In this document: piece by piece, positions 37,589 to 51,646 of the stretch
Layout of the letters: every line of letters begins with the position of its first letter
Numbering within the stretch: position 1 is the first letter of the stretch
Assembly: GCA_017467965.1 (NCBI GenBank)
Contig: JAFUJZ010000024.1
Span: forward strand, 7,342-71,341
Direction of reading: 5' to 3'
From: Clostridia bacterium
GTDB taxonomy: Bacteria; Bacillota_A; Clostridia; UMGS1883
Length of the DNA: 64,000 nt
Notes under the pieces: model-generated
The model's input: only the letters and a program-made list of their open reading frames with translations
Databases searched by the model: none
What the model was told of the DNA's origin: nothing
Made by a program: the position numbers and the translations under genes

Positions 37589-37590
37589 CA

Positions 37591-37648
37591 TCAACTTTGA
37601 AGACTAAAAAAAGAGCCTGTAGGCTCTTTTTTTAGTCTTCAAAGTTGA
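37591..37648. terminator. Perfect 28-bp inverted repeat between convergent genes
   Basis: Arms 37591-37618 and 37621-37648 are exact complements around a 2-nt centre (core AAAAAAAGAGCCT). It starts three bases after the lipase stop and contains the last five codons and stop of the leftward DUF1292 gene. Confidence 0.9.
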
Positions 37649-37931
37649 ATTCGTCCTTATACTTTTCTTTGAATGCTTCGAATACAGCTGTAAGTGTTTC
37701 GTCATCTTCAACGGGAGAGTAAACATCCTCTTCGTCGTTAAGCTCTTCTAAAAGCATGATAACTACTTCGTTATCATCGGGAGGAAGCATAACAGCATAG
37801 CTGTCGCCTTCGTAATCGATAACATCCAAAAGCTCAAACTCGATTTCTGTACCGTCTTCATCAAAGAGGGAAACCATTTCGGGTTCGTATTCTTCCATGT
37901 TCATATCTTCATTGTTGTTGATATCTGCCAT
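37632..37931 (-). CDS. DUF1292 acidic small protein
   Basis: The 99-residue, strongly acidic protein has the DUF1292 (YrzB-like) core: LFDEDGTEIEFELLDVIDYEGDSYAVMLP, then VVIMLLEELNDEEDVYSPVEDDETL. Common in Firmicutes, often near ruvX/mltG, with no known biochemical role. I start at 37931 after AAAGGAGTTTTAGAA. Its last five codons (FNFED) are part of the long inverted repeat. Confidence 0.88.
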   Translation of the reverse strand: MADINNNEDMNMEEYEPEMVSLFDEDGTEIEFELLDVIDYEGDSYAVMLPPDDNEVVIMLLEELNDEEDVYSPVEDDETLTAVFEAFKEKYKDEFNFED

Positions 37932-37962
37932 TTCTAAAACTCCTTTGCGTTTAATTACACTC

Positions 37963-37991
37963 ATTATATAAAAACAACGGCAGATTGTCAA
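37963..37991 (-). promoter_or_regulatory. Promoter of the DUF1292 gene
   Basis: Minus strand TTGACA (37986-37991), 17 bp and TATAAT (37963-37968), just beyond the end of the SleB gene. Confidence 0.8.
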
Positions 37992-38003
37992 GGTCATATC
38001 AGT

Positions 38004-38660
38004 TTACGAACAGAACACGTGCTTCCCTATGGTGAGAATAATTGGTCGCGACCGTATCCATTTATTTGTGGCGGTCACAGGGTTATAGTAGTATATTGCC
38101 CCGCCAGTGGGATCCCAGCCGTTAAGCGCATCACGAGCGGCTCTCTCGCAGCTCGATGTCATCGCGGCATCAATCTGTCCGTCGTCAACAGCGGTGAAAG
38201 CCCCGGGCTGATATATGACCCCTGCAACAGTGTTGGGAAAAGACGGATGCTTAACACGGTTTAATATGACAGCACCCACTGCGACCTGTCCGGCATAAGG
38301 CTCACCGCGAGCCTCGCCGTTAATGGCTCTGGCTAAAAGATACACGTCATTATTTGCAGCACTTGACCCGGATACTGAGCTTATTCCCATTGCAGCCAAA
38401 GTTGCACTGCCTGCAATACCGTCAGCGGTAAGACCGTTTTTCTTTTGAAAATCCTTTACGGCTTTTTGTGTTTGTGAGCCGTACTTGCCATCAACCGAGC
38501 CTTTATAATAGCCCCAGTTTTTGAGCCTTGTCTGGATTTTGGTGACCTCGCTGCCTGTTGAACCGAGCCTGGAGAGTGCATCTGTGGTGCGGTTGTTATA
38601 AAAATGGGCACCTGTTAAGAGTAATGTACTTGCTATAATAAAAGAAATAATTTTTTTCAT
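38004..38660 (-). CDS. sleB: Spore cortex-lytic enzyme SleB-like cell wall hydrolase
   Basis: The 218-residue protein has a signal peptide, a peptidoglycan-binding domain (about 35-92, GSEVTKIQTRLKNWGYYKGS, VDGKYGSQTQKAVKDFQKKN) and a hydrolase_2 domain (about 105-218) with ARAINGEARGEPYAGQVAVG and VILNRVKHPSFPNT. SleB is a lytic transglycosylase for muramic-lactam cortex in germination. Its SD is within the hairpin at 38667-38706. Confidence 0.9.
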   Translation of the reverse strand: MKKIISFIIASTLLLTGAHFYNNRTTDALSRLGSTGSEVTKIQTRLKNWGYYKGSVDGKYGSQTQKAVKDFQKKNGLTADGIAGSATLAAMGISSVSGSSAANNDVYLLARAINGEARGEPYAGQVAVGAVILNRVKHPSFPNTVAGVIYQPGAFTAVDDGQIDAAMTSSCERAARDALNGWDPTGGAIYYYNPVTATNKWIRSRPIILTIGKHVFCS

Positions 38661-38666
38661 AAGAAA

Positions 38667-38706
38667 AAACCTCCTCGGTGGTTAGTCTTTACCACAGAGG
38701 AGGTTT
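38667..38706 (-). terminator. thrS terminator hairpin holding the sleB ribosome site
   Basis: AAACCTCCTC pairs with GAGGAGGTTT (10 bp), one G-A mismatch, then GTGGT with ACCAC (5 bp), loop 8 nt; T-run on the minus strand. The GGAGG at 38670-38674 is the sleB SD, paired in the stem, nine bases before its ATG. Confidence 0.75.
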
Positions 38707-38713
38707 ATATTCA
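38683..38713 (-). promoter_or_regulatory. Possible sigma-G-like promoter for sleB
   Basis: Minus strand TGAATA (38708-38713), 18 bp and AAGACTA (38683-38689). The -35 matches the sigma-G consensus TGAATA and the -10 matches five of seven in CATACTA. Transcripts from it would start after the 5' arm of the hairpin. A guess from sequence only. Confidence 0.4.
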
Positions 38714-38714
38714 T

Positions 38715-40652
38715 TTATCTTGTTTTATTTGCGATTTCTTCCATAAGAGCAAGGATAAAGTCATTAACCTTCATGCTGCCCTTGTCGCCTTCCTTACGGC
38801 TACGTACAGCTACTGCGCCATCTTCCATTTCCTTGTCGCCTACAACAAGCATGTAAGGAACCTTTTCAAGCTGAGCTTCACGAATCTTGTAACCGATTTT
38901 TTCGCTTCTGTCGTCAACTTCACTACGGATGCCCATGTTTATAAGGCGAGTATTAAGCTCACGGCAGTATTCGCGGTGGCCTTCACCGATAGGAAGCAAC
39001 TTAACCTGAACGGGTGCCATCCATGTGGGGAACGCACCTGCATACTTTTCAATAAGAAGAGCAAGTGTTCTTTCATAGCAACCGATACTTGTACGGTGGA
39101 TGATGTAAGGATGCTTCTTTGTGCCGTCAGCATCTGTATAAACCATACCGAACTTTTCTGCAAGCATCTGGTCAATCTGAAGAGTTATGAGAGTATCTTC
39201 CTTACCGTGAACGTTCTTAATCTGAATATCAAGCTTAGGACCATAGAAAGCTGCTTCGCCGATACCTACAACATAAGGAATTTCAAGGTTGTCCAAAATT
39301 TCCTTCATCATGCTCTGAGCTTCAGCCCACTGTTCGTCTGTACCGATATACTTTTCACGGTCGTCGGGATCCCACTGACTGAAGCGGTAGGAAACGTCCT
39401 CGTAAAGCCCGAGAGTTTTAAGCATATAGATTGCCAATTCAAGACAGCTCTTGAATTCATCTGCGAGCTGTTCGGGAGTACACATAAGGTGACCTTCACT
39501 GATTGTGAACTGTCTTACACGGATAAGTCCGTGCATTTCGCCACTTGCCTCATTGCGGAAAAGAGTACTTGTTTCACCGTAGCGGAGGGGCAAATCACGG
39601 TAGGAACGGGCACGGTTAAGATATGCCTGATACTGGAAGGGGCATGTCATGGGACGGAGTGCAAAAACTTCCTTGTCCTTATCTTCATCGCCCAAAACAA
39701 ACATACCGTCCTTGTAATGGTCCCAGTGACCTGAAATCTTATAAAGATCGCTCTTTGCCATGAAGGGTGTTTTTGTTCTAAGCCAGCCACGTCTTGTTTC
39801 TTCATCTTCTACAAAACGCTGCAAGGTCTGCATGATTGCAACACCCTTGGGAAGCATAATCGGAAGACCCTGACCGATAACCTCGCTTGTTGTGAAGAGC
39901 TCAAGCTCACGTCCTAATTTATTATGGTCGCGCTTTTTAGCCTCTTCAACCTGTGCGAGATATTCTTCCATATCAGCCTTCTTTGTAAAAGCTGTTGCGT
40001 AAATACGTGTAAGCATCTTGTTCTTTTCACTTCCGCGCCAGTAAGCACCTGCAGTGGAAGTAATCTTGAACGCTTTTACTGCACCAGTACTGGGCACATG
40101 AGGACCTGCACAAAGGTCAGTAAATTCGCCCTGCTTATAGAAAGAAATTACTTCTCCTTCGGGCAAATCGTTTATGAGCTCAACCTTATAGGGTTCATTT
40201 GCTTCTTCCATAAGCTTAAGTGCTTCTTCACGAGGAAGTTCAAAGCGGACAATGGGATGATTTTCCTTAACAATCTTCTTCATTTCAGCTTCAATCTTTG
40301 ACAAATCATCAGGAGAGAAGCCCTTGTCGAGGTCAAAATCGTAATAAAAACCGTTTTCAATGGCGGGACCGATAGCAAGTTTTGCTTCGGGGAAAATACG
40401 CTTTACTGCCTGAGCGAGCACATGGCTTGCACTGTGGCGGAGTGTATTTTTACCCTCGGGGGTATCAAAACCTTTAAATTCAACGGTTGCATCAGTGGTA
40501 AGGGTTTCATACAACCCTACTGTTTCTCCGTCTTTTGTTGCGCAAAGAACGTTTCTTGCTAAGCCTTCAGAAATGCTCTTTGCAATGTCCATATACGTAA
40601 CAGGTGCTTCAAATTCACGCACATCGTCACGCAATGTAACCTTAATTACCAT
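38715..40652 (-). CDS. thrS: Threonyl-tRNA synthetase
   Basis: The 645-residue protein has a TGS domain (to about 65), the editing domain with HSASHVLAQAVKRIFP and the class II catalytic core: RPMTCPFQYQAYLNRARSYR, FRNEASGEMHGLIRVRQFTI, and an anticodon domain. I start at ATG 40652 after AAGGAG. No T-box leader is seen upstream, although thrS often has one: only 55 bp separate the start from the preceding gene. Confidence 0.97.
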   Translation of the reverse strand: MVIKVTLRDDVREFEAPVTYMDIAKSISEGLARNVLCATKDGETVGLYETLTTDATVEFKGFDTPEGKNTLRHSASHVLAQAVKRIFPEAKLAIGPAIENGFYYDFDLDKGFSPDDLSKIEAEMKKIVKENHPIVRFELPREEALKLMEEANEPYKVELINDLPEGEVISFYKQGEFTDLCAGPHVPSTGAVKAFKITSTAGAYWRGSEKNKMLTRIYATAFTKKADMEEYLAQVEEAKKRDHNKLGRELELFTTSEVIGQGLPIMLPKGVAIMQTLQRFVEDEETRRGWLRTKTPFMAKSDLYKISGHWDHYKDGMFVLGDEDKDKEVFALRPMTCPFQYQAYLNRARSYRDLPLRYGETSTLFRNEASGEMHGLIRVRQFTISEGHLMCTPEQLADEFKSCLELAIYMLKTLGLYEDVSYRFSQWDPDDREKYIGTDEQWAEAQSMMKEILDNLEIPYVVGIGEAAFYGPKLDIQIKNVHGKEDTLITLQIDQMLAEKFGMVYTDADGTKKHPYIIHRTSIGCYERTLALLIEKYAGAFPTWMAPVQVKLLPIGEGHREYCRELNTRLINMGIRSEVDDRSEKIGYKIREAQLEKVPYMLVVGDKEMEDGAVAVRSRKEGDKGSMKVNDFILALMEEIANKTR

Positions 40653-40689
40653 ACTGATCAACTCCTTAATTATTTTAATATACCATATT

Positions 40690-40718
40690 ATTTTATCCCT
40701 TTAAATTTAAATTGTCAA
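40690..40718 (-). promoter_or_regulatory. thrS promoter overlapping the radical SAM gene end
   Basis: Minus strand TTGACA (40713-40718), 17 bp and TAAAAT (40690-40695). The -35 is within the final codons of the upstream gene. Confidence 0.75.
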
Positions 40719-41684
40719 CACATATTTTCCGTCTATGCAAACACCCGAGAGGCTGTTATTCTCGGTTAAGGTATATGTGATACCCGCTTTTTCAAAATAT
40801 GCGAGATTTTCTTTTTTTTGACCGAGCACCTTGCTCAAAAAACGCTTGTTATATTCAATATGGGCACACCCCACCGCCGCAACTTTATGGCGAATTACTC
40901 TTGAATACACAATTTCGCCCAGGGCATCGTGGTAGAAACCTCCCACAACGCTCTCTTTGAGCCCTTCTGAATTTTGCAGTCCTATTCTTAAAATTTTAAC
41001 ATTGTTTTCAAAAAATATACTGTAACAGTCAGCCGCAGTATCAATAGCCTCGTCAAAGCTCATGGGGATATATTCTTTATCATTGTACATTTTTTCAAGG
41101 TGTGTATCCTTTATGATAACGGTGGGATAAATCCTCACCTCATCTGCCCCAAGTTCAACAAACCGTTTTGCGGTGTTAAGGCTTTTTTCATATGTATCCG
41201 AGGGAAGTCCTATCATCATCTGAAGCCCCAGCTTTATATTGCGCTTCTTTATCATCCTCGCCGCTTTTTCAACATCCTCTGCGCTGTGACCTCGTCTTGC
41301 GGCACAAAGCACCTCGTCGTCAAGGCTTTGGGCACCAAGCTCAATATTCGTAACCGAGTATTTTTCAAGTGTATCGAGGATTTTTTCGTCTATATAATCG
41401 GGTCTTGTGGAAAGTCTTATGCCGCTTATAAGCCCTTTAGCTACATATTTATGTGCAACACGGAGATACCCTTCCATTAAATCCTCACCAATGCCCGTAA
41501 AGCTGCCGCCGAAAAAAGCAATCTTATTGTCGTTACCCTCTAAGGTAGAGAGGTTTTCTTCTATTATTTTTTCCGTCTCTTCAAAGCTCGGAGCCACTAC
41601 TTTACCAGTAATGGATTTTTGATTGCAAAAAGCGCAGTCGTTTTTGCAGCCCACATGGGGTATAAAAATAGGAATATTTGACAT
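40707..41684 (-). CDS. Radical SAM protein, Elp3-like
   Basis: The 325-residue protein has HVGCKNDCAFCNQKS (C-x3-C-x2-C) at residue 10, then FFGGSFTGI, ELGAQSLDDEVL and LQMMIGLPSDT, the Elp3/coproporphyrinogen-oxidase-like radical SAM pattern without an acetyltransferase domain. The gene lies one base after rnc, a common clostridial arrangement. A tRNA-modifying or unknown role; no direct clue. I start at 41684 as the longer frame is in rnc. Confidence 0.82.
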   Translation of the reverse strand: MSNIPIFIPHVGCKNDCAFCNQKSITGKVVAPSFEETEKIIEENLSTLEGNDNKIAFFGGSFTGIGEDLMEGYLRVAHKYVAKGLISGIRLSTRPDYIDEKILDTLEKYSVTNIELGAQSLDDEVLCAARRGHSAEDVEKAARMIKKRNIKLGLQMMIGLPSDTYEKSLNTAKRFVELGADEVRIYPTVIIKDTHLEKMYNDKEYIPMSFDEAIDTAADCYSIFFENNVKILRIGLQNSEGLKESVVGGFYHDALGEIVYSRVIRHKVAAVGCAHIEYNKRFLSKVLGQKKENLAYFEKAGITYTLTENNSLSGVCIDGKYVLTI

Positions 41685-41685
41685 T

Positions 41686-42357
41686 TTACATTTCTCCCAA
41701 GGCTTTTTTTGCAGCCTGCTGCTGTGCCTCCTGTTTCGTTCTGCCGCTTCCTTCTCCAAGCACTTTCCCCCACGCAGATACGCTCATGGTAAAACGCTTA
41801 TCGTGAGCAGGCCCCTCCTCACCGGTTAAGGTATATTCAATCTTTACGCTGCCCTTTTGCTGCAATTTTTCCTGCAGAGCCGTTTTATAGTCGGTATTAA
41901 GTTTACCCTGCGCGGCATTTTCAATAATATGTCCGTAGGCGTCGAAAATAATCTCCCTCGCCTTGTCTATGCCTCCGTCAAGGTACACCGCAGCTAAAGT
42001 TGCTTCCACCATATCAGCCAAGATAGACGGGCGGTTTCGTCCGCCTGTAAGCTCCTCGCCCTTGCCGAGCCTTGCATGCTCATTAATGCCTATTTTGTAC
42101 GCAATCTGCGAAAGCGTTGCCTCGCATACAATATTTGCACGCATCTTGCTCATTTTACCCTCGGGGAATTTAGGATAATTCACATATATATACCTGCTCG
42201 TTAGCATTTGGAGCACCGCATCACCCAAAAACTCAAGCCTTTCATAGCTCTCAACCCCACGCTCGTTTGCGTATGAAGTATGCGTAAGCGCAGTTTCAAT
42301 CAGATTTTTATCTTTAAACTCATAACCGAGTTTTTTTTCGAATTCTTTTATGTCCAT
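41686..42357 (-). CDS. rnc: Ribonuclease III
   Basis: The 223-residue protein has the signature ERLEFLGDAVLQMLTSRYIY and the acidic residues of the catalytic domain, and a C-terminal double-stranded RNA-binding domain (about 155-222, DYKTALQEKLQQKGSVKIEY and KQEAQQQAAKKAL). It cleaves rRNA precursors and structured RNA. Own promoter upstream. Confidence 0.97.
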   Translation of the reverse strand: MDIKEFEKKLGYEFKDKNLIETALTHTSYANERGVESYERLEFLGDAVLQMLTSRYIYVNYPKFPEGKMSKMRANIVCEATLSQIAYKIGINEHARLGKGEELTGGRNRPSILADMVEATLAAVYLDGGIDKAREIIFDAYGHIIENAAQGKLNTDYKTALQEKLQQKGSVKIEYTLTGEEGPAHDKRFTMSVSAWGKVLGEGSGRTKQEAQQQAAKKALGEM

Positions 42358-42392
42358 AGCTATCCCTCTATATCAAATTATTAGCTACTGAT

Positions 42393-42421
42393 ATTTTATA
42401 ACATTTCCATTTAAAGGTCAA
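42393..42421 (-). promoter_or_regulatory. Promoter of rnc
   Basis: Minus strand TTGACC (42416-42421), 17 bp and TAAAAT (42393-42398). Confidence 0.65.
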
Positions 42422-42484
42422 TATTTTTTAAAACAAGCCAAACTCCCCATTTTTCGGCATTTTCCGCGGGTTGGTTTTTAAAAA

Positions 42485-42681
42485 TAATTATGTAAACCTT
42501 TGCGTTTTTGCAAAAAATTCACCCTGTGGAAGTTTTGAGTTTTCCACAAGGTGAAAATGCTTATTTGGCGGTTTTGAACAGACTTTTCCACATCTTCCAC
42601 AATTAAAACAATCGTTTTTTGTGGAAAGTTTGAAGTTTTCCAAACCCCCAAAACCCAGTAAAATAAAGGTTTACATAATTA
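42485..42681. repeat. 197-bp element bounded by 17-bp inverted repeats, with clustered TTCCACA boxes
   Basis: TAATTATGTAAACCTTT (42485-42501) and AAAGGTTTACATAATTA (42665-42681) are exact complements. Between them are five TTCCACA boxes, in both orientations: about 42524-42532 (reverse), 42540-42548 and 42584-42592 (TTTTCCACA), 42593-42601 (TCTTCCACA), and 42620-42628 (reverse). TTTTCCACA differs by one base from the DnaA box TTATCCACA. No gene lies here. It may be a DnaA-binding cluster or a small mobile (MITE-like) element. Confidence 0.6.
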
Positions 42682-42750
42682 GTTTTTCTTTTGATTTTTC
42701 AAAACATTTCATCGCTTTGTATTTTTATGCAGGTCTCATAAAAATAGGTG

Positions 42751-42779
42751 TTGCAAAATCCTTTAAATAGGGATATAAT
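42751..42779 (+). promoter_or_regulatory. Promoter of the hisD-like cassette
   Basis: TTGCAA (42751-42756), 17 bp and TATAAT (42774-42779), 40 bp before the start. Confidence 0.75.
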
Positions 42780-42820
42780 GTAATTTAATAATATTTTTTT
42801 CAAAAAAGGAGTCATTTAGT

Positions 42821-44113
42821 ATGAATATTTATAAACTTTCCGAAATGTCTGCTTGTGATAAGGCTCGCATCATGAAGCGTGCTGAAACAGATATCACAGA
42901 GCAGATGAAGCTGGCAAAAGAGGTTTCCGACGATGTTCGTGACAACGGCGATGCCGCAGTCTTGAAATATACCGAAAAATTTGACAAGGTTACTCTCACA
43001 CAGGACAGAATCAAGGTAACAGAAGAAGAAATCGAAACAGCTTATAACCGTCTTGACAAAGAAACAAGAGAAGCTATCGAATACGCATACAAAAACATTT
43101 ACGATTTCCACGAAAAGCAGCTCCCTGAGGAAATGTGGTTCACAAACGTTGATAAAGGTCTCATGGTAGGCGAAAAGACAACTCCCATAGTTGACGTTTG
43201 CCTTTATGTTCCCGGCGGCAAGGGCAGTTTCCCCTCGGTACTTCTTATGCTTGGCGTTCCTGCTCGAGTTGCAGGGGTAGAAAAAATCGTTGTTGTAACA
43301 CCTCCCAATTCTAAGGGTGAGGTTGACGACGCAATCCTCACAGCAGCAAAGATTATCGGCATTAAGGAAATATACAAGGTAGGCGGTATTCAGGCAGTAG
43401 CAGCCGTTGCTTACGGTACGGAAACTATCCCCAAGTGCCACAAGATTATAGGCCCCGGCAACAGCTACGCAACAGCCGCAAAGAGAGTGCTCGCTCAGCA
43501 GATTGACGCAGGTCTGCCCGCAGGCCCCAGTGAAGTTATCATCTTAGCCGATGAAAAGGCAGACCCCGAAAAGGTTGCCCTTGACTGGATGATTGAAGCA
43601 GAACACGGTCCCGATTCGTCCGCACTTTTGGTTACTCACTCAAAGGAGCTTGTGGACAAGGTTCTTCCCATTATCGAAAGACAGAAAGAAAAAATCTCCG
43701 AAAGAAGACGCATGTTCATCGAAACTGTTGAAAATAACTATGGTGGTGTAATTCTTACAGATTCTCTTTCTGAGAGCGTACAGTTTGTCAACGACTATGC
43801 TCCCGAGCACATGGAGGTTATGTGTGATAAGCCCTTCGACGTTTTGCCCGATATCAAAAACGCCGGTGAAATCCTCTTGGGTGAATACACACCCGTAACA
43901 CTCTGCAACTTCCTTTTAGGTCCTAATGCAATTCTTCCTACAGGTGGTTTTGCAAAGACATATTCTTCTGTATCCGTATTTGACTTTTTAAAGCGTTCTT
44001 CCATTGGCTACGCATCTCGTGAAGGCTTTGAAAGAGTACGTGATTACGCATATAAGATGGCAACAGTTGAAGGCTTTGATACTCACGGCTTAGCCGTTAA
44101 GGAGAGAAAATAA
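42821..44113 (+). CDS. HisD-family dehydrogenase with altered catalytic residues
   Basis: The 430-residue protein is clearly HisD-like: GPGNSYATAAKR, AGPSEVIILAD, APEHME and LPTGGFA. Compared with E. coli HisD from memory, several key positions differ: the zinc ligand Gln259 is Glu (MIEAEHG), Asp360 is Asn (LCNFLLG), and His367 is Ala (GPNAILPT). Glu326, His327, Glu414 and His419 are kept. A plain histidinol dehydrogenase would be expected to keep the zinc set. It is first of a three-gene cassette with one-base overlaps. It may oxidise another polyol or amino alcohol; not determined. Confidence 0.8.
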   Translation: MNIYKLSEMSACDKARIMKRAETDITEQMKLAKEVSDDVRDNGDAAVLKYTEKFDKVTLTQDRIKVTEEEIETAYNRLDKETREAIEYAYKNIYDFHEKQLPEEMWFTNVDKGLMVGEKTTPIVDVCLYVPGGKGSFPSVLLMLGVPARVAGVEKIVVVTPPNSKGEVDDAILTAAKIIGIKEIYKVGGIQAVAAVAYGTETIPKCHKIIGPGNSYATAAKRVLAQQIDAGLPAGPSEVIILADEKADPEKVALDWMIEAEHGPDSSALLVTHSKELVDKVLPIIERQKEKISERRRMFIETVENNYGGVILTDSLSESVQFVNDYAPEHMEVMCDKPFDVLPDIKNAGEILLGEYTPVTLCNFLLGPNAILPTGGFAKTYSSVSVFDFLKRSSIGYASREGFERVRDYAYKMATVEGFDTHGLAVKERK

Positions 44114-44727
44114 TGATTAAGGTTACGCGCAAAACTTCTGAGAGCACAATGCAGGTAATTCTTTCCGACGGGCCTGTAAAAAAGGACTACAGAAGCAAAA
44201 TAAAAACTCCACTCCCCTTTTTAAACCACATGATTGAGCAGACAGTATGGAGATCGGGCTTCAATATCGAAGCTGAAGTTAACCTTACTGATTTTTGCCT
44301 TGCTCACCTTGTAACAGAAGATTTGGGACAGGCACTGGGTAAGGCTTTTGCCAAAAAGCTCGAGACAACAGATGCTGTTATGGGCTTTGGTGATGCCTTT
44401 GGTATGATTGATGAAGCACTTGCTCATACAACCATAAGCTTTGAACAGAGAGCGTTTTTCGGTTTTTATCCGTCTGTTACTATCCCCGAAAACGTTGAAG
44501 GCATGGCAAGCGAAGAGCTTCTTGTTTTCCTTGACGCATTTTGTCAAGGTGCATGCTGTACAGTGCAGATTGACCTTACAAGAGGTGAAAACACTCACCA
44601 CATCTGGGAGGCTGTTTTCCGTTCCTTTGGTTCTGCGCTCAAAAACGCATTTACCGTTGATGAAAGCCGCCAAGGTATGACAAGCGGTGTAGCAGGCAAG
44701 GTTACGTTTGAAGTAGAGGAAATCTGA
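44113..44727 (+). CDS. HisB-like dehydratase with altered metal ligands
   Basis: The 204-residue protein follows imidazoleglycerol-phosphate dehydratase along its length (FLNHMIEQ, VTEDLGQALG, MIDEALAH, ENTHHIWEAVF). But the DDHHTVED motif reads LAHLVTED (second His, H72, is Leu), the H143 position in VEHFF is Val (LLVFLDAF), His in SHG is Arg and the C-terminal PSSKG is not kept. H45, H71, E75, HH167/168 and E171 remain. It probably does a related metal-dependent elimination on a different substrate, or is a weakened HisB. It overlaps the upstream gene by 1 bp. Confidence 0.78.
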   Translation: MIKVTRKTSESTMQVILSDGPVKKDYRSKIKTPLPFLNHMIEQTVWRSGFNIEAEVNLTDFCLAHLVTEDLGQALGKAFAKKLETTDAVMGFGDAFGMIDEALAHTTISFEQRAFFGFYPSVTIPENVEGMASEELLVFLDAFCQGACCTVQIDLTRGENTHHIWEAVFRSFGSALKNAFTVDESRQGMTSGVAGKVTFEVEEI

Positions 44728-45770
44728 TGACTAAAGTTGCACCCTTTTTAGACAAATACGAATATATCATTTTTGACATGGACGGTGTTATCACCAGCGA
44801 GCAAAATTACTGGGACATCGCCGCACTTACGGTATACGAGCTTTTAAATGGAGCACACTATTACGGAAACGAAAAATTTGACCCCGTTAACGCCCTCTGC
44901 CGTGTTAAAGAAATAAGAAACGATGTTTTTTACGGCGATAAAACAATCACTCTCGTAAAAGAACGCGGGGTGAATTCAAACTGGGATTTAGGCTATATTG
45001 TATTTGCGTATATTCTCACAGGTAAATGCCCACATTACAAAGCTGTTTATGACTATATATCCCAAAGCAGTCTTATGGCGTTTGACCTTTATGAGGAATG
45101 CGCCCGTCTTTTATCTGAAAAGCTCAACTTACCCATTGAGGTGTGTCGCAGGAATGAGCCTATCTGGAATATGTGCCGAGACTGTTTTCAGGAATGGTAT
45201 TTCGGAAGTGGCGAGTTTGAGGTTTTTTATAACACCAAGCCCCGCTTGGCAAATAAAGCATCCATGGAAATGCGTGAAATTCCCGCAATAGAGCTTGAGG
45301 ATATTATCTTGGTTTTAGAAACACTTAAGCAAAACGGCAAAAAGCTTATGATTGCCACAGGCAGAAGTGACCGAGATGTTTCAAACCCCATGAAGCTCTG
45401 GAATATAAGAGGTTATTTTGAAGCCGATGCAATTGCGACCTACACCCATATTATGAAAGCTGAGGAGCATTTTTCCTCGATGGGCAAAAAGGTGCTTCTC
45501 ACAAAGCCCGAGCCTTATATTTTCCTTAAGGCTCTCTGTAGAACAGATTTCCCCGACGAAAAAATCATAGCGGGCGAATATGATAAGAGCCTTCTTTCGA
45601 AAACACTTGTTGTAGGCGATGCAGGCAGCGACCTTTTTGCGGCAAAGCGCATGGGCTGTGACTTTTTGGCGGTTTTGACAGGCGTCAGTGGCAAAAAGGC
45701 ACAAAGCTTTTTTGAAAATGAAAATGCTGAGTATATTCTTCCCTCAATTAAGGGAATGATTACATATTGA
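44727..45770 (+). CDS. HAD-superfamily phosphatase, third gene of the His-like cassette
   Basis: The 347-residue protein has HAD motifs FDMDGVIT (residues about 15-22), MIATGRS, a lysine in LLTKPEP and VVGDAGSDLFAAKRMG (GDxxxD). A very large cap insertion (about residues 30-190) makes it longer than typical phosphoglycolate phosphatases. A one-base overlap (TGATG) with the HisB-like gene argues for a shared pathway. It might dephosphorylate the product of the HisB-like enzyme, or stand in for histidinol-phosphatase. Substrate is unknown. Confidence 0.82.
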   Translation: MTKVAPFLDKYEYIIFDMDGVITSEQNYWDIAALTVYELLNGAHYYGNEKFDPVNALCRVKEIRNDVFYGDKTITLVKERGVNSNWDLGYIVFAYILTGKCPHYKAVYDYISQSSLMAFDLYEECARLLSEKLNLPIEVCRRNEPIWNMCRDCFQEWYFGSGEFEVFYNTKPRLANKASMEMREIPAIELEDIILVLETLKQNGKKLMIATGRSDRDVSNPMKLWNIRGYFEADAIATYTHIMKAEEHFSSMGKKVLLTKPEPYIFLKALCRTDFPDEKIIAGEYDKSLLSKTLVVGDAGSDLFAAKRMGCDFLAVLTGVSGKKAQSFFENENAEYILPSIKGMITY

Positions 45771-45795
45771 CTTTTTAGTTAATAATGAATATAAT
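45767..45795 (+). promoter_or_regulatory. Promoter of the DUF1858 gene
   Basis: TTGACT (45767-45772), 17 bp and TATAAT (45790-45795); the -35 overlaps the HAD stop. Confidence 0.75.
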
Positions 45796-45830
45796 TGTGT
45801 AAAGCAAATTTTTTAATGGAGGTATTTACT

Positions 45831-46034
45831 ATGGCACAGGTAACTAAGGATACAATTATTATGGACGTTTTGAGAATTGACCCCGAAACAGCTCCTATTT
45901 TCTTTGAGATCGGCATGCACTGCCTCGGTTGCCCCTCTGCAAGCGGCGAAAGCTTGGAGCAGGCAGCACTTGTTCACGGTGTTGACCCCGATGAACTTGT
46001 ACAGAAGATTAACGATTTTCTTGCAAGCAAGTAA
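45831..46034 (+). CDS. DUF1858 redox-disulfide protein (hybrid-cluster associated type)
   Basis: The 67-residue protein has the DUF1858 form: DTIIMDVLRIDPETAPIFFE, then GMHCLGCPSASGESLEQAA with a CxxC pair. Such proteins are predicted thiol-disulfide or metal-binding partners, often found near hybrid-cluster proteins. I start at 45831 after GGAGGTATTTACT. No hybrid-cluster gene is here. Confidence 0.85.
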   Translation: MAQVTKDTIIMDVLRIDPETAPIFFEIGMHCLGCPSASGESLEQAALVHGVDPDELVQKINDFLASK

Positions 46035-46038
46035 TACA

Positions 46039-46067
46039 AAAGAGTGCGAATTATCGCACTCTTTTTA
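46039..46067 (+). terminator. Terminator of the DUF1858 gene
   Basis: AAAGAGTGCGA / TCGCACTCTTT around a short loop, then T's. Confidence 0.85.
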
Positions 46068-46121
46068 TTATATAGGAAATCGCGCGCAAAATGTGCGCAT
46101 ATTTGCTTATAAAATAAAAGC

Positions 46122-47129
46122 TTACCTTTTCATCCCCCAAGATTGGGAGACGAGGGGGTTGAAGCATTGAAAATGCTTTTTTATTTTACGGAAAATCAAG
46201 CATCCGCTTACTATTACACAAACCGCACATAAACTAAGTACCAGCACATCAAAACGACCTTTCATCACAAGCAGTGTGCTGTATGTAAAGATATATGCAA
46301 AAACCCCCGTCAGGGCTTTTCCCACAATGCACCTTGTCATTTTAAAATTATGCTTCGCACACACGGCGCCGCACTGTACAAAAACGCTTACTCCCCCAAA
46401 GGCAAAAAACAGTGCCGCAAGAGAAAGGCTATTTACCTCCGAGGCGTAGTTAACGCCCTTTACAATTTCACAAAGTCCTGCCAAAAACGGGTACCTTTCC
46501 AATCCTATCGCCTCTATTAAGGCATAAAAAACAACAAAAGCCGACACTATATTTATAAGCATTACCCCTCCCGATGCAATGCTTTTTCCAAAAACCGCCA
46601 TATATGACGGTTTTTCTTTTTTGCATTTTTCTATCCGTGCTGTAATATCTACGGTTTTTACGCTTCCCCTTGACATTATACACCCTGTAAGCAGTGCACC
46701 TAAAAGCTGAAACACCCACACCAAAACACCTGCAAAGATGCTTGAAAACGCTATTTTCCCGATAATATTTATCGCAAAAATTATACCTCCGTTATTTGCG
46801 TAGGCGAGAATATCCTCCGCTTCTTCTTTGCCAATAAGCCTTTCTTCGTACATATCGCACACAGCACCCGCCCCTGTGGGGTACCCACCCAATGCGGAAG
46901 AAAAAAACGCAACTGAGCCGTAAGGGTTAAGGCGAAGCTTTTTAAAAAATGGTGAGCACAGCGCACCTATAACCCGCCCTTGTCCCGAGCGTATCAGTGC
47001 CGACGCCGCCACCGCAAAAGGAAGAACGGAGCACACAACCGTATTAAAACCCACCTCTAAGCCTTCTCGTGCCCCCTCTGCCGCCGCGTCGGGAAAAATA
47101 AGCAAAACAATACACACGATTAAAAACAT
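46122..47129 (-). CDS. YlbJ-like sporulation integral membrane protein
   Basis: The 335-residue polytopic protein has the family block FFSSALGGYPTGAGAVCDMYEER and LAYANNGGIIFAIN, of the nucleoside-recognition (gate) domain proteins such as YlbJ and SpmA, which are needed for spore cortex or dehydration. It is divergent from yqfC, another sporulation gene. The C-terminal tail after the last helix (HFQCFNPLVSQSWGMKR) is read through two small hairpins and may be an extension into former non-coding DNA. Confidence 0.78.
   Translation of the reverse strand: MFLIVCIVLLIFPDAAAEGAREGLEVGFNTVVCSVLPFAVAASALIRSGQGRVIGALCSPFFKKLRLNPYGSVAFFSSALGGYPTGAGAVCDMYEERLIGKEEAEDILAYANNGGIIFAINIIGKIAFSSIFAGVLVWVFQLLGALLTGCIMSRGSVKTVDITARIEKCKKEKPSYMAVFGKSIASGGVMLINIVSAFVVFYALIEAIGLERYPFLAGLCEIVKGVNYASEVNSLSLAALFFAFGGVSVFVQCGAVCAKHNFKMTRCIVGKALTGVFAYIFTYSTLLVMKGRFDVLVLSLCAVCVIVSGCLIFRKIKKHFQCFNPLVSQSWGMKR
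46160..46182 (+). terminator. Second plus-strand terminator within the ylbJ-like 3' end
   Basis: AAGCATT-GA-AAATGCTT then TTTTTATTTT. It should catch rightward transcripts from the DUF1858 gene. Confidence 0.55.
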
Positions 47130-47194
47130 AATATCCTCCTTCCTTTAATAAATATATGTAAAGTTTATCTTTGCATACCGAAAGGATGATTATA

Positions 47195-47476
47195 TTGAAA
47201 TTTAATGCACTCCGAAATTCTCTACTTTCAAAAACCGAAGCCGCACTTGATATGCCCGAGGGTATTTTGCGCGACGCACCTAACATTGTACTCTACGGCA
47301 CATCGCTTGCCGAGATTGACAATTTTAAAGGGCTTATAGATTTTTCGGACAGCTCTATGCGTATCAATACAACCTCAGGGCTTATCCGTATTGACGGAGT
47401 GTCGCTTTTTATATCCTCCATGACGGACGACAACCTTTGCGTAAAGGGTACGATAAAAAACATCAGCTTTGAATAA
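47195..47476 (+). CDS. yqfC: Sporulation protein YqfC
   Basis: The 93-residue protein matches YqfC: LDMPEGILRDAPNIVLYGTS, INTTSGLIRIDGVSL and LCVKGTIKNISFE. It is a sigma-E-controlled protein required for sporulation in Bacillus. I start at TTG 47195, eight bases after AAAGGA, which gives the same length as B. subtilis YqfC. It is first in the yqfC-to-era operon. Confidence 0.88.
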   Translation: MKFNALRNSLLSKTEAALDMPEGILRDAPNIVLYGTSLAEIDNFKGLIDFSDSSMRINTTSGLIRIDGVSLFISSMTDDNLCVKGTIKNISFE

Positions 47477-47496
47477 AGGGGACGATTTTTCTGAAA

Positions 47497-48678
47497 ATGC
47501 AGTTAATGGATTTTGTCCGCGGCAGGTGGGAATTATGTGCCGAGGGCACTTTTTGTGAGCGTATCATAAACATTACCAAGGAAATGGGCATTTTTATACA
47601 GGGCATAAAGTCCGACGGCGATAAAAAAATCCTTTTCACCGTAAGTTACAAGGGTGCAATGAAGCTTTTTTCATCACCTTTACCGGAGGATATTACCCTT
47701 TGGGTAAAAAGCCGTAAGGGACTTCCTGCCATACTTGAAAACAACAAAAAGCGTTACGCCCTTTTTTTGTGTCCGGTTTTTATATTCCTGCTTATATTTT
47801 TGTCAACTAACATCATTTGGCATGTAAATATCATAGATGCAGACAGAGAAACCGAAGAGTTTTTATTACAAGAGCTTGAAAAGCTCGGCGTAAAAAAAGG
47901 TGCGTTTACTTTTCTTATAGACCAAAGCGATGTTAAAAATCAAATGCTTATAAAGCATGAAAAGCTTCAATGGATATGGGTGGATATAAAAGGGGGTACT
48001 GCGCTTGTCAGGTTTTCTTTTAGGACAATGCCACCTGACGTTTTTGACGAGGATGCTTTTTATAACGTATGTGCAACCCATGACGCCACCATCACCCGCG
48101 TTTTGGCGACAAACGGCGAAAGCCGTGTAAAGGAAGGCGACAAGGTTTTCAAGGGGCAGATTTTGATAGAAGGTGTTATGCCAAAGGATAGTGAGGAGAA
48201 AAAATTCATCCATGCCTCGGGCAAGGTTTTCGGCATAGCTGAGTTTGAAAAAACCATAACTGTTCCCTCAAAAACACAAATCCGCACCCCAACAGGAGAA
48301 AAAATCGAACATTTATCAATAAATTTTTTAAATTTTAACATAAAACTTTTCATAAACAGTAGAATTTTGTACCCGGAATATGATATTATAGAGTATAATA
48401 GGCATATAGGCTTTTTGCCCGTCAGCTTCAACAAAAAAGTTATACAAGAGGTGGATGTGTCCTACAAGGAAAACGACATACATCTTATGGCACAGAAAAG
48501 TGAGGCAAACTTTAAGAAAGAGCTTGAAAACGAAGGCAAAAAGATAACCTATATCGAAACTTTTACTTCTCAAAGCGGCGATGAATATATTATCACAACA
48601 CATGCTCTTTGTGAGTTTGACATCGCCCAGGAACGGAGGATTAACCTTGGAGAAAATTATCCAGTCACAGACAATTGA
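47497..48678 (+). CDS. yqfD: Sporulation protein YqfD
   Basis: The 393-residue protein has YqfD features: an N-terminal cytosolic part, a single transmembrane segment near residues 90-110 (LFLCPVFIFLLIFLSTNIIW) and a long exterior domain with VRFSFRTMPPDV and RVKEGDKVFKGQILIEGVM. It is a mother-cell sporulation protein. A CTG at 47491 has better SD spacing and could be the true start. It overlaps phoH by 32 bp. Confidence 0.85.
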   Translation: MQLMDFVRGRWELCAEGTFCERIINITKEMGIFIQGIKSDGDKKILFTVSYKGAMKLFSSPLPEDITLWVKSRKGLPAILENNKKRYALFLCPVFIFLLIFLSTNIIWHVNIIDADRETEEFLLQELEKLGVKKGAFTFLIDQSDVKNQMLIKHEKLQWIWVDIKGGTALVRFSFRTMPPDVFDEDAFYNVCATHDATITRVLATNGESRVKEGDKVFKGQILIEGVMPKDSEEKKFIHASGKVFGIAEFEKTITVPSKTQIRTPTGEKIEHLSINFLNFNIKLFINSRILYPEYDIIEYNRHIGFLPVSFNKKVIQEVDVSYKENDIHLMAQKSEANFKKELENEGKKITYIETFTSQSGDEYIITTHALCEFDIAQERRINLGENYPVTDN

Positions 48679-49606
48679 CGAAACTATTGCCCTGTTCGGC
48701 AGTTTTGATTTTAATGTAAAGCTTATTGAAAAAGCCTTTAACGTAAGGATTTCAAACCGCGGCGAAATCATCAAGATAACAGGTGATGACGAAAACGTTG
48801 AAAAAGCCTCAAACGTGTTTGAAAATCTTTTTGCTCTTTACCGTAACGATGAAGAGGTTAACGAGCAGGCTGTGCGCTATGCTATTGATATGGCGCAGGC
48901 GGGGCTTAGTCCCGATTATGCAAAAAGTGCCGACACCATCTGCATCTCCAGCAAAGGCAGACCCGTAAAGTGTAAAACAAAAGGTCAGCAGAGCTATGTT
49001 AACAAAATCAAAGACAACACAGTTGTAATTGCAATAGGCCCTGCAGGTACAGGTAAAACATACCTTGCCGTTGCAATGGCTGTAGACGCTTTCCGTAAAA
49101 AAGAGGTGTCGCGTATTATCCTAACACGTCCTGCTGTGGAAGCAGGCGAAAAGCTCGGCTTTTTGCCCGGCGACTTACAGATGAAGGTTGACCCCTATTT
49201 AAGACCATTGTACGACGCACTTTCCGATATGCTCGGTTTTGAAAACTATCAGAAATACGTAGAGCGCGGCTCTATCGAGGTTGCACCACTTGCGTATATG
49301 CGAGGCAGAACACTTGACGATGCCTTTATTATCCTTGACGAAGCGCAGAATACTACTCCCGAGCAGATGAAAATGTTCCTCACACGTATCGGCTTTGGTT
49401 CAAAATGCGTCATCACAGGTGACGTTACGCAGATTGACCTTCCCGACGGTAAACGCAGCGGCCTGAAAGAAGCCGTTAAAATATTAAAGGGTATTGAAGG
49501 ATTGGAGATATGTCATCTTTCCGCATCCGATATCGTCCGTCATCCTCTTGTACAAAAAATCATCGCAGCATATGAACGCTTCGAATCAAAACGTAACACA
49601 AGATAA
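48647..49606 (+). CDS. phoH: PhoH-like ATPase
   Basis: The 319-residue protein has the PhoH Walker A VIAIGPAGTGKTYLAVAMAV and RPAVEAGEKLGFLPGDLQMKVDPYLRPLYD, then AFIILDEAQNTTPEQMKMFL and TGDVTQIDLP. The N-terminal part is KH-like. It is thought to be an RNA helicase/ATPase linked to YbeY. Start: TTG 48647 seven bases after GGAGG. Confidence 0.93.
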   Translation: MEKIIQSQTIDETIALFGSFDFNVKLIEKAFNVRISNRGEIIKITGDDENVEKASNVFENLFALYRNDEEVNEQAVRYAIDMAQAGLSPDYAKSADTICISSKGRPVKCKTKGQQSYVNKIKDNTVVIAIGPAGTGKTYLAVAMAVDAFRKKEVSRIILTRPAVEAGEKLGFLPGDLQMKVDPYLRPLYDALSDMLGFENYQKYVERGSIEVAPLAYMRGRTLDDAFIILDEAQNTTPEQMKMFLTRIGFGSKCVITGDVTQIDLPDGKRSGLKEAVKILKGIEGLEICHLSASDIVRHPLVQKIIAAYERFESKRNTR

Positions 49607-49618
49607 GGAGGTTTTCAG

Positions 49619-51646
49619 ATGTCACTCACATTACGTCAGAGAATTATATGCCTGTCCCTTGTTGCCATTACTGCACTGGCTCTTGTGGCAACGGTTGTTG
49701 CTCTTGGTCTTCCCAAGCAGTACGAGATTGCCGTAGGCGATTTTTCTCCCGAGACTATTTATGCCTCAAGACAAATCAACGACACTGTTACAACTGAGGA
49801 AAGGCGAAAAGCCGCTTCCGATATGATAACAGAGCAGTACAATCTTGACTTTACCGCATCGGAAAAAGCTATCAAAAATTTCGGTGCCGATATTACTGCC
49901 CTTACAACCGCAAGAGATAATCAAGGCATTGAAATTGACAATGCACTGCCCCTTCCCTTGCCCGTGACAAACAACTCGTCACTTTCGCAGGCGCTTTTCA
50001 ACAAAGCTATCAAGCTTTCTGATACCAATTTCAACATATTGAAAAACCATATTCCCACAATATTTGAAACCGTCATAAACGAAGGCGTTACAGACTCTAC
50101 TACAGGTATCGAAAGCTTTACGGCATATCTTGACAAGCAAAACATCACGAACTCTGATGTACGCGAAATTGCAATTGCACTCTGCACAACATCTATCGAG
50201 GTAAACAAAATCCCCGACCCCGAAAAGACAAAATCCATGCGTGCTGCAGAGGCTAACGGCGTGGAAACGGTTGTTTACCAGAAAAATCAGATTATCGTTG
50301 AAAAAGGTGAAAAAATCACAGAAGCACAATTCAGGATGCTCTCTGAACTCGGCTATGTAAAAGGTAAAAGCTACATTGATATTGTGCATGCGGTAAGCTC
50401 TGCTGCTCTTGCGCTTTTGGTGTTTGCACTGGTTATTGCGTATTACGTAATGGTGGGCAAAAATAATATGTCCACCTCCCACGTAACGGTTACAATTATC
50501 TGCACCTCTCTTATCATCTTAGGTGCACTCATGGTTTTCCTTGCAGGCAAAATGTCCGTTACCGTTATGTACATTCTTCCGGTGTCGGTTATTCCTGCCC
50601 TTATTGCGCTACTGCTTAATGCAAATCTTGCAAGCATGGTCAATATTATTATCGCCGTGCTTGTGGGCATACGTCTCAATGACTTTTCCGCATCCTTGGC
50701 AGTTATTATAGCAGGTACTGCAACGGCATACCTTTTTGCACAGGTAAGACGCCGTGCGCATCTCCTTCCTGCTACACTTATCAGTGCTCTTATTTATTCA
50801 TTCATGTATACAATCGCGCTTATGGATACTTCCAAGGGTGTTTTAGGATTCTTCTTGATGCTTGTTTATTCCTTCCTCGGCGGTTTCCTCGGCGGTATTT
50901 TGACAATAGGCACTATCCCCTTCATGGAGGCAATATTTGACGTTATCACTCCCATGAAGTTAGGCGAGCTTAGTAATCCCGAGCACAAGCTTCTTAAAAA
51001 GCTGTTACTTAAAGCTCCCGGCAGTTACCACCACGCACTTACCGTTGCCAACATGGCGGACGCCGCCGCGGCAGCTATCAACGCAAACGCACTTTTGGCA
51101 CGAGTGGGTGCATATTATCACGACATAGGCAAAATGGAAAACCCCTACTATTTCAAGGAAAACCAGTTTGCTGACGAAAACCCCCACGATGAGCTGCCTC
51201 CCGAGGAAAGTGCTCAGATTATCATAAGCCACGTATCTGACGGCGTACATTTGGCAACACAGTACCGCCTCCCCAGCATAGTGCGCGATATAATCATGCA
51301 GCACCACGGTACAACAACCGCGTCATTCTTCCTTTACAAGGCACGTGAGAAAAATCCCAACGTAGACCCCTCTATTTTCACATATGACGGTCCTACTCCC
51401 CAGAGCAAGGAAGCAACAATTATCATGCTTGCAGACGCCTGCGAAGCAGCAGTACGAGCTATGCGTGAAAAAGGTTATGAGGATGTCTCCAAGATAGTAA
51501 ATGACATTGTAGCGTCCCGAATTTCGGACGGTCAGCTTGCATCGAGCGAGCTTACCTTCTCGGATCTTGACAAGGTAAAAGCATCCTTTGTCACAACGCT
51601 TGAGCAGTATTTCCACAAGCGTATAATCTATCCTCAGAACAAATAA
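49619..51646 (+). CDS. yqfF: 7TMR-HDED family cyclic-di-AMP phosphodiesterase PgpH/YqfF-like
   Basis: The 675-residue protein has a short N-terminal helix, an extracytoplasmic HDED domain, seven helices (about residues 255-435) and a C-terminal HD domain: PGSYHHALTVANMADAAAAAI, VGAYYHDIGKMENPYYFKEN and HHGTTTASFF. Homologues hydrolyse c-di-AMP. It belongs to the standard phoH-yqfF-ybeY order. Confidence 0.92.
   Translation: MSLTLRQRIICLSLVAITALALVATVVALGLPKQYEIAVGDFSPETIYASRQINDTVTTEERRKAASDMITEQYNLDFTASEKAIKNFGADITALTTARDNQGIEIDNALPLPLPVTNNSSLSQALFNKAIKLSDTNFNILKNHIPTIFETVINEGVTDSTTGIESFTAYLDKQNITNSDVREIAIALCTTSIEVNKIPDPEKTKSMRAAEANGVETVVYQKNQIIVEKGEKITEAQFRMLSELGYVKGKSYIDIVHAVSSAALALLVFALVIAYYVMVGKNNMSTSHVTVTIICTSLIILGALMVFLAGKMSVTVMYILPVSVIPALIALLLNANLASMVNIIIAVLVGIRLNDFSASLAVIIAGTATAYLFAQVRRRAHLLPATLISALIYSFMYTIALMDTSKGVLGFFLMLVYSFLGGFLGGILTIGTIPFMEAIFDVITPMKLGELSNPEHKLLKKLLLKAPGSYHHALTVANMADAAAAAINANALLARVGAYYHDIGKMENPYYFKENQFADENPHDELPPEESAQIIISHVSDGVHLATQYRLPSIVRDIIMQHHGTTTASFFLYKAREKNPNVDPSIFTYDGPTPQSKEATIIMLADACEAAVRAMREKGYEDVSKIVNDIVASRISDGQLASSELTFSDLDKVKASFVTTLEQYFHKRIIYPQNK

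Follow-up and report, generated by a model that had tools for sequence, protein, structure and literature searches.

A conserved trio of divergent HisD, HisB and HAD-family proteins probably completes histidine biosynthesis in a clade of Clostridia

The late steps of histidine biosynthesis are usually seen as chemically fixed, and the metal ligands of HisD (histidinol dehydrogenase, HDH) and HisB (imidazoleglycerol-phosphate dehydratase, IGPD) as diagnostic. In the published description of Medicago HDH (PMC5585171; structures 5VLB-D), Zn is held by Gln299, His302, Asp401 and His460, the amino and imidazole nitrogens of the substrate coordinate the metal, Glu455 (equivalent to E. coli residue 414) holds the imidazole, and the backbone carbonyl of His408 touches the substrate; by a constant offset the four ligands correspond to E. 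coli Gln259, His262, Asp360 and His419. Arabidopsis IGPD (2F1D/4MU0) has one Mn site made of H73, E77, H145 and H170 (PMC4509728), and the other, mapped from Medicago HISN5 (PMC10978614), comprises H47, H74, H169 and E173, canonically three His and one Glu per metal. HpsN, a sulfopropanediol dehydrogenase (8V35), is described as keeping its Gln248/His251/Asp352/His411 ligand set together with a G-R-Y-A/S-H motif that carries the sulfonate-binding His126 (PMC11382572). Here we compare these systems with three adjoining genes, HisD-like, HisB-like and HAD-superfamily phosphatase-like, in a 64,000-nucleotide stretch of a Clostridia bacterium genome (assembly GCA_017467965.1, contig JAFUJZ010000024.1, positions 7,342 to 71,341; hereafter the window). 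Gene content, co-occurrence and residue changes point to the trio as divergent enzymes, with reactions that we infer, for the second half of histidine biosynthesis in one clade of Clostridia; we put the probability of this at roughly three in four.

The trio forms a single + strand unit in which neighbouring genes overlap by one base, as the first-pass annotation had read. The HisD-like dehydrogenase gene (42821..44113, 430 amino acids (aa)) meets the HisB-like dehydratase gene (44113..44727, 204 aa) at TAATG, with the shared base at 44113, and the latter meets the HAD gene (44727..45770, 347 aa) at TGATG, with the shared base at 44727. The HisD-like protein exceeds the cut-offs of both PF00815 (509.8 versus 27 bits) and TIGR00069 (480.1 versus 243.8 bits), the HisB-like protein passes that of PF00475 (108.4 versus 27 bits), and the third protein, a relative of Staphylococcus aureus 1QYI, scores 43.7 bits with HAD_2. 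BLAST with nine reference his proteins found only the HisD-like and HisB-like proteins in the window, bearing out the earlier remark that no other his gene is nearby. A contig scan kept 80 of 151 relatives and, with one Monoglobus record, gave 81 loci. Petroclostridium sp. X23, Ructibacterium gallinarum and Monoglobus pectinilyticus are isolates that bear the trio. Of the 78 loci with usable HisD and HisB, 77 have the two side by side on the same strand, and HAD starts fewer than 600 bases from HisB in 65 of the 81.

In profile and catalytic machinery the HisD-like protein resembles HisD. The catalytic pair Glu326/His327, the imidazole anchor Glu414 and the Zn ligands His262 and His419 (E. coli numbers) are invariant in 78 trio rows and 18 canonical clostridial rows; 78 of the 81 loci gave a row, L052 and L066 having no match and L020 a fragment below the 200-bit limit. 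The other two of the four Zn ligands are changed: Gln259 and Asp360, along with His367, read Glu, Asn and Ala in 78 of 78 trio rows, whereas the canonical rows have Gln, Asp and His in 18 of 18. In the window, these are the + strand codons GAA for Glu259 (43595..43597), those for Cys362 and Asn363 at E. coli Gly359 and Asp360 (43904..43909), and that for Ala370 at His367 (43928..43930), from a column table and codon check. The first-pass annotation had listed these three substitutions correctly. It called His367 catalytic, and here the Ala is confirmed but the role is not: by the constant offset of 41, His367 would be the equivalent of Medicago His408, and it is better called a substrate-contact residue. 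Further changes that had gone unremarked are also fixed in the trio, Gly359 to Cys and Ser258 to Ile (78/78 rows), and Glu356 has become Val (70 rows) or Ile (8 rows).

The HisB-like proteins keep E21, H47, H73, E77, D108, R121, H169, H170 and E173 (Arabidopsis numbers) in 81 of 81 trio rows, and with them the catalytic Glu21 and Glu173 and six of the eight Mn ligand positions. One ligand is lost per site: H74 has become Val, Leu or Ile, and position 145 is Thr, Val or Ala, so that each predicted Mn site would keep two His and one Glu. The first-pass annotation had reported a lost His at this second position (its H143, two below the Arabidopsis number). A ligand is indeed lost there in the trio, but it is a carboxylate, as canonical clostridial HisB has Glu in 18 of 18 rows and the missing His is not specific to the trio. 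The other HisB changes that it noted, at H74 and at H55 (Arg in the trio), stand. Among the phosphate contacts compared (Q51, H55, R99, R121, K177, S199 and K201), R121 is kept, Q51 is Gln or His, and, beyond H55, R99 has become Gly (79 rows) or Ser (2) and K177 Arg; the C-loop carries a one-residue insertion, and a Lys in it has become Ala. These last three substitutions are additional to those first noted. In the window, alignment and codon checks place Arg47 (H55, phosphate contact) at 44251..44253, Gly91 (R99, phosphate contact) at 44383..44385 and Val138 (H145, Mn ligand) at 44524..44526, with roles as given in PMC4509728, and Leu66 (H74, Mn ligand, mapped from Medicago His142, PMC10978614) at 44308..44310, all on the + strand. 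Loss of R99 and of the C-loop Lys would fit an unphosphorylated substrate. However, the positively charged R47, R113 and R170 are fixed in the trio and the Lys two residues past the changed one is kept in 56 of 81 rows, so the phosphatase may act before or after the dehydratase.

So, do these altered enzymes still make histidine? The first-pass annotation proposed that a three-step route had been repurposed for a different substrate. The fixed changes in both enzymes speak for this, as does HpsN, which in the published account shows that HisD can be repurposed (PMC11382572). Gene content does not support it. Our class-wide sample of 243 Clostridia class-mates (90% completeness was asked for; actual completeness is not reported) was split by eye at a gap in E-values into 41 genomes with the variant HisB (1.4e-27 to 9.7e-40), about one sixth of the sample, 149 with canonical HisB (3.7e-56 or lower) and 53 without HisB. 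Residues read in the variant genomes agree with the split: E259/N360/A367 occur in 41 of 41 HisD, and HisB is of the variant type in 37 of 37, with four HisB genes that do not adjoin HisD outside the reading. The suggested search for a second, canonical hisD or hisB found none in the 41 genomes, where the variant HisD is the only HisD (41/41); each of the 190 HisB-positive genomes, the 41 included, has exactly one HisB. HisG was found in 40 of the 41 variant genomes, in 148 of the 149 with canonical HisB and in 4 of the 53 lacking HisB, so the variant HisB tracks HisG as canonical HisB does. A sole HisD/HisB pair in a histidine-making genome is what the first-pass annotation had named as refuting its reading, and by gene content the variant genomes fit this description.

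An initial set of 20 genomes with the trio gives the same picture. Nineteen of them, including the complete genome of Petroclostridium sp. X23, have one match each to PF00815 and PF00475, and G018 has two each; HisG was found in 19 and the HisA/HisF family in all 20. Twenty his loci of 4 to 20 kb, drawn from 19 of these genomes, contain varied sets of hisZ, G, H, A, F and IE, ordered hisZ-G-H-A-F-IE in Petroclostridium, and BLAST found no hisB, hisC or hisD in these loci save a nearby trio in G016. Since the trio supplies the sole HisB and HisD in genomes whose other his genes lead as far as imidazoleglycerol phosphate, finishing histidine is the only economical role for it. The retained anchor Glu414 fits an imidazole substrate. 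Like HpsN, the HisD-like protein is a HisD paralogue with a Glu/His catalytic pair, but the trio lacks HpsN's intact ligand set, and its G-R-Y-A/S-H motif was not found in the window protein, which reads G-K-G-S-F. We consider repurposing for an unrelated substrate improbable; the substrate may have shifted within the histidine pathway, oxidation before transamination being one example.

Trees (23 trio, 18 canonical and one E. coli row for each protein) place trio HisD and trio HisB each in one clade with support of 100/100, on a long stem with short tips. As drawn with a midpoint root, the stems measure 2.94 (HisD) and 2.52 (HisB) changes per column, the split of the HisB stem being arbitrary. 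Stems and residue changes together suggest a single shift in working conditions and strong constraint thereafter, rather than decay. The earlier reading of correlated active-site change in both enzymes holds, the three-gene unit being conserved and the changes fixed, and the long stems and short tips fit a functional shift. The lost metal ligands could also mark decayed, non-functional remnants in histidine auxotrophs. This is very improbable, given that catalytic residues are invariant and that mean pairwise identity within one genome set is higher for trio HisD (80.5%, n = 18) than for HisG (73.5%, n = 13) or HisF (74.6%, n = 8). Slow HisD evolution was also considered as a sign of a special role, but this is weakened by HisG and HisF, which are well conserved in these genomes too.

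In a histidine pathway completed by the trio, HisZ-G-H-A-F-IE would make imidazoleglycerol phosphate, and the HisB-like protein, a predicted di-metal enzyme with two His and one Glu per site, would dehydrate it. The HAD protein, or another phosphatase where it is missing, would remove the phosphate before or after the dehydratase step. The HisD-like protein would carry out two oxidations dependent on nicotinamide adenine dinucleotide (NAD) that lead from the primary alcohol to the acid, and a non-HisC aminotransferase would act before it, as in the canonical order, or after it.

Should the canonical order be preserved and the active-site changes simply be tolerated, the HisB-like protein would yield imidazole acetol phosphate, a non-HisC aminotransferase would convert this to histidinol phosphate, the HAD protein would be a new histidinol-phosphate phosphatase, and the HisD-like protein would form histidine. 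The gene content (sole HisD, sole HisB, HisG present) agrees with this, the Q259E and D360N pair swaps an acid and an amide between two Zn ligands and may keep Zn, and several unrelated phosphatases are on record for the step (PMC5516325; PMC5764234). Set against these points, the changes are fixed, several fall on Zn or other metal ligands, both clades sit on long stems, and HisC is mostly missing too. We view the canonical order as a serious but tentative option, a little short of an even chance.

The aminotransferase evidence bears on a special case of the trio's role in histidine synthesis, in which transamination comes last. Of the 41 variant genomes, 4 have a HisC (TIGR01141) above cut-off; of the 149 canonical genomes, 39 were tested and 37 have one. 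Two of the four matches lie among aroF-tyrA-aroA-like genes and two beside mutS/miaB-like genes (names by eye). Thirteen further variant genomes have only sub-cut-off matches at E ≤ 1e-50; those inspected, from five of the 13, lie among cobalamin-type genes (names by eye) and were set aside. In an aminotransferase-last route, the HisB-like and HAD proteins, in either order, would turn imidazoleglycerol phosphate into imidazole acetol, the HisD-like protein would oxidise this to imidazolepyruvate, and a general aromatic aminotransferase would form histidine. Histidinol, HisC and a histidinol phosphatase would be bypassed, and HisB would work with two 2-His-1-Glu sites. Beyond the scarcity of HisC and the aromatic-pathway or cobalamin-type surroundings of matches, this route draws on Q259E, D360N, E356V/I and G359C, which in sequence lie at or near the Zn that binds the amino group, while the anchor E414 is kept. 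Altered Zn surroundings, where canonical HisD places the amino group, and a mostly missing HisC together suggest oxidation before amination. However, another aminotransferase family could make histidinol phosphate, and GapMind reports diverged HisC elsewhere, so a missed cut-off is no proof of HisC absence. This route is possible but, on balance, rather unlikely.

For the phosphatase step, the closest solved relative of the HAD protein by sequence is S. aureus 1QYI (E 3e-39), which is also the best fold match of its structure model (E 2.5e-23, 26% identity; mean predicted local distance difference test score, pLDDT, 95.8). Like the trio protein, 1QYI (structural-genomics target ZR25) belongs to the HAD superfamily; its PDB name is 'hypothetical protein', and an open-access literature search found no paper joining 1QYI with a HAD phosphatase role. 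D17, D19, K260, D298 and D302 are invariant in 28 rows. We take D17 and D19 to be the catalytic Asp pair, K260 the Lys, and D298 and D302 the acidic motif IV, so the protein appears to have the residue set of an active HAD phosphatase. It would fill the same step as the known histidinol-phosphate phosphatases (HAD-IIIA of HisB-N, PHP HisJ, IMPase HisN and SerB-like), but unlike these it scores below the Histidinol-ppas cut-off and those of the HAD-IIIA, HisB-N-type models (TIGR01656, 21.7 versus 84.15 bits; TIGR01662, 29.2 versus 44.6 bits). A PHP histidinol phosphatase is above cut-off in 4 of 20 trio genomes. With a limit of E ≤ 1e-40, the HAD protein has a match in all but one of the variant genomes (40 of 41) and in 4 of the 202 others. 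In G072, G115, G155 and G172, HisB lies apart from HisD and HAD is on another contig; all three genes are kept.

Several observations weigh against a histidine role for the trio, or against parts of it. The HisB-like protein matches 13 NCBIfam models, none above cut-off (best 109.1 versus 189 bits), and has lost metal and phosphate contacts. In HisD, the Zn ligand Asp360 is Asn, and the HpsN mutant D352A is reported to have no detectable activity (PMC11382572). Because each trio protein falls in a single clade, the 41 genomes do not count as independent cases, and the Fisher tests give p-values that are too favourable. Histidine prototrophy of the trio organisms is itself read from their genes. 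The HisD-like gene lies outside the his operon, and the trio is unlinked to other his genes in all but one (L054) of the 81 loci; that single linkage, about what chance would give by a rough estimate, was discarded as evidence. No more than 6 kb separates HAD from HisD in 35 of 41 variant genomes, and in 5 more the two are unlinked; 14 trio loci have no adjoining HAD, with no HAD match at all in 7 of these 14 genomes; and four canonical-HisB genomes have a HAD relative. The seven HAD-less genomes are all titled as metagenome-assembled genomes, in which a missing contig could hide the gene. HAD was dropped as an exclusive marker of the trio in view of the four canonical and seven HAD-less genomes. 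These absences, unlinked copies and canonical-genome relatives mean that another protein may serve as the phosphatase in some or all of the genomes, and HAD is the weakest part of the proposed pathway.

If histidine synthesis by the trio is correct, it would offer a concrete example of a re-ordered pathway that can be put to the test, and of a di-metal dehydratase that makes do with 2-His-1-Glu sites. In a large clade, the late histidine steps appear to depend on two altered enzymes, and in most of its genomes no HisC can be recognised. Annotation hides the difference: the one annotated record examined, from Monoglobus, names the three genes hisD, hypothetical protein and HAD hydrolase. In GapMind, histidinol-phosphate phosphatase is the commonest low-confidence step (42 of 148 organisms). 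We found no account of the trio variant in the open-access literature, most subscription literature being outside the search.

Within the window, the unit is preceded by a weak promoter-like site, TTGCAA-17-TATAAT (42751..42779, +; 10/12 consensus matches), and by AGGAG (42807..42811, +), a likely ribosome binding site of the HisD-like gene, and is followed by a terminator-like hairpin (46038..46065, +; hairpin scan). Promoter-like sites in the region number 12, versus 7.5 ± 2.4 in shuffles, and terminator-like sites 4, versus 3.6 ± 1.7; such sites therefore prove little. T-box and riboswitch models gave only sub-threshold matches in 36000-50000 of the window, and no T-box or cis-regulatory his element was among four matches in seven his loci. 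With the HisR consensus published in PMC9413887, 10 of 19 trio genomes have a site that matches at least 11 of 14 positions and lies between -190 and -26 relative to the hisZ start, and an eleventh genome has one at +37. A site of at least 12/14 precedes 1 of 73 trio hisD genes, the palindrome TGCTTTATCGTAGTAAAGTG at L079:8571-8590, about 101 bases 5' of the trio; as one or more such sites turn up in 9.5% of 400 shuffles, it is a hint only.

The genome counts above come from relatives of the genome that holds the window. In one of these, G006, contig C57 is collinear with the window and has hisZ-G-H-F ~39 kb downstream of the trio, beyond the point matching the window end. Long HisG frames of 551-619 aa occur in nine genomes (G003, G016, G033, G063, G108, G129, G149, G185 and G219), which suggests that hisZ and hisG are fused in some members of the trio clade; frames of 548-559 aa also occur in the canonical genomes G054, G119 and G201. 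Among neighbours, whose cluster names rest on one Pfam-scanned member each, dnaK-dnaJ lies 5' of the trio in 34 of 80 anchored loci. This was not used as functional evidence, being housekeeping synteny. Where the trio directly follows hrcA-grpE-dnaK-dnaJ (e.g. L007:1002-5770), it may be co-transcribed with this heat-shock operon. A Fumerase_C-like gene lies directly 3' in 53 of the 80, though not in the window; this fumarase-beta-like gene (PF05683; L001:14940-15482, annotated 'Fe-S-containing hydro-lyase') comes after HAD or HisB. By eye, a similar gene stands beside the HAD relatives of two canonical-HisB genomes (L129:5034-6074 and L130:7350-8369). In two of the four canonical genomes with a HAD relative, G116 and G094, the nucleophile motif of that relative is altered (FELDG and FEPEG, as at L129 and L130, respectively), and these may be inactive HAD proteins. 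Finally, the Monoglobus record of L001 (NZ_OY725736.1, 518 kb), filed as a plasmid of Monoglobus pectinilyticus, has uvrC, proB, sigH, pta and an acetate kinase gene, and is probably a piece of chromosome rather than a plasmid.

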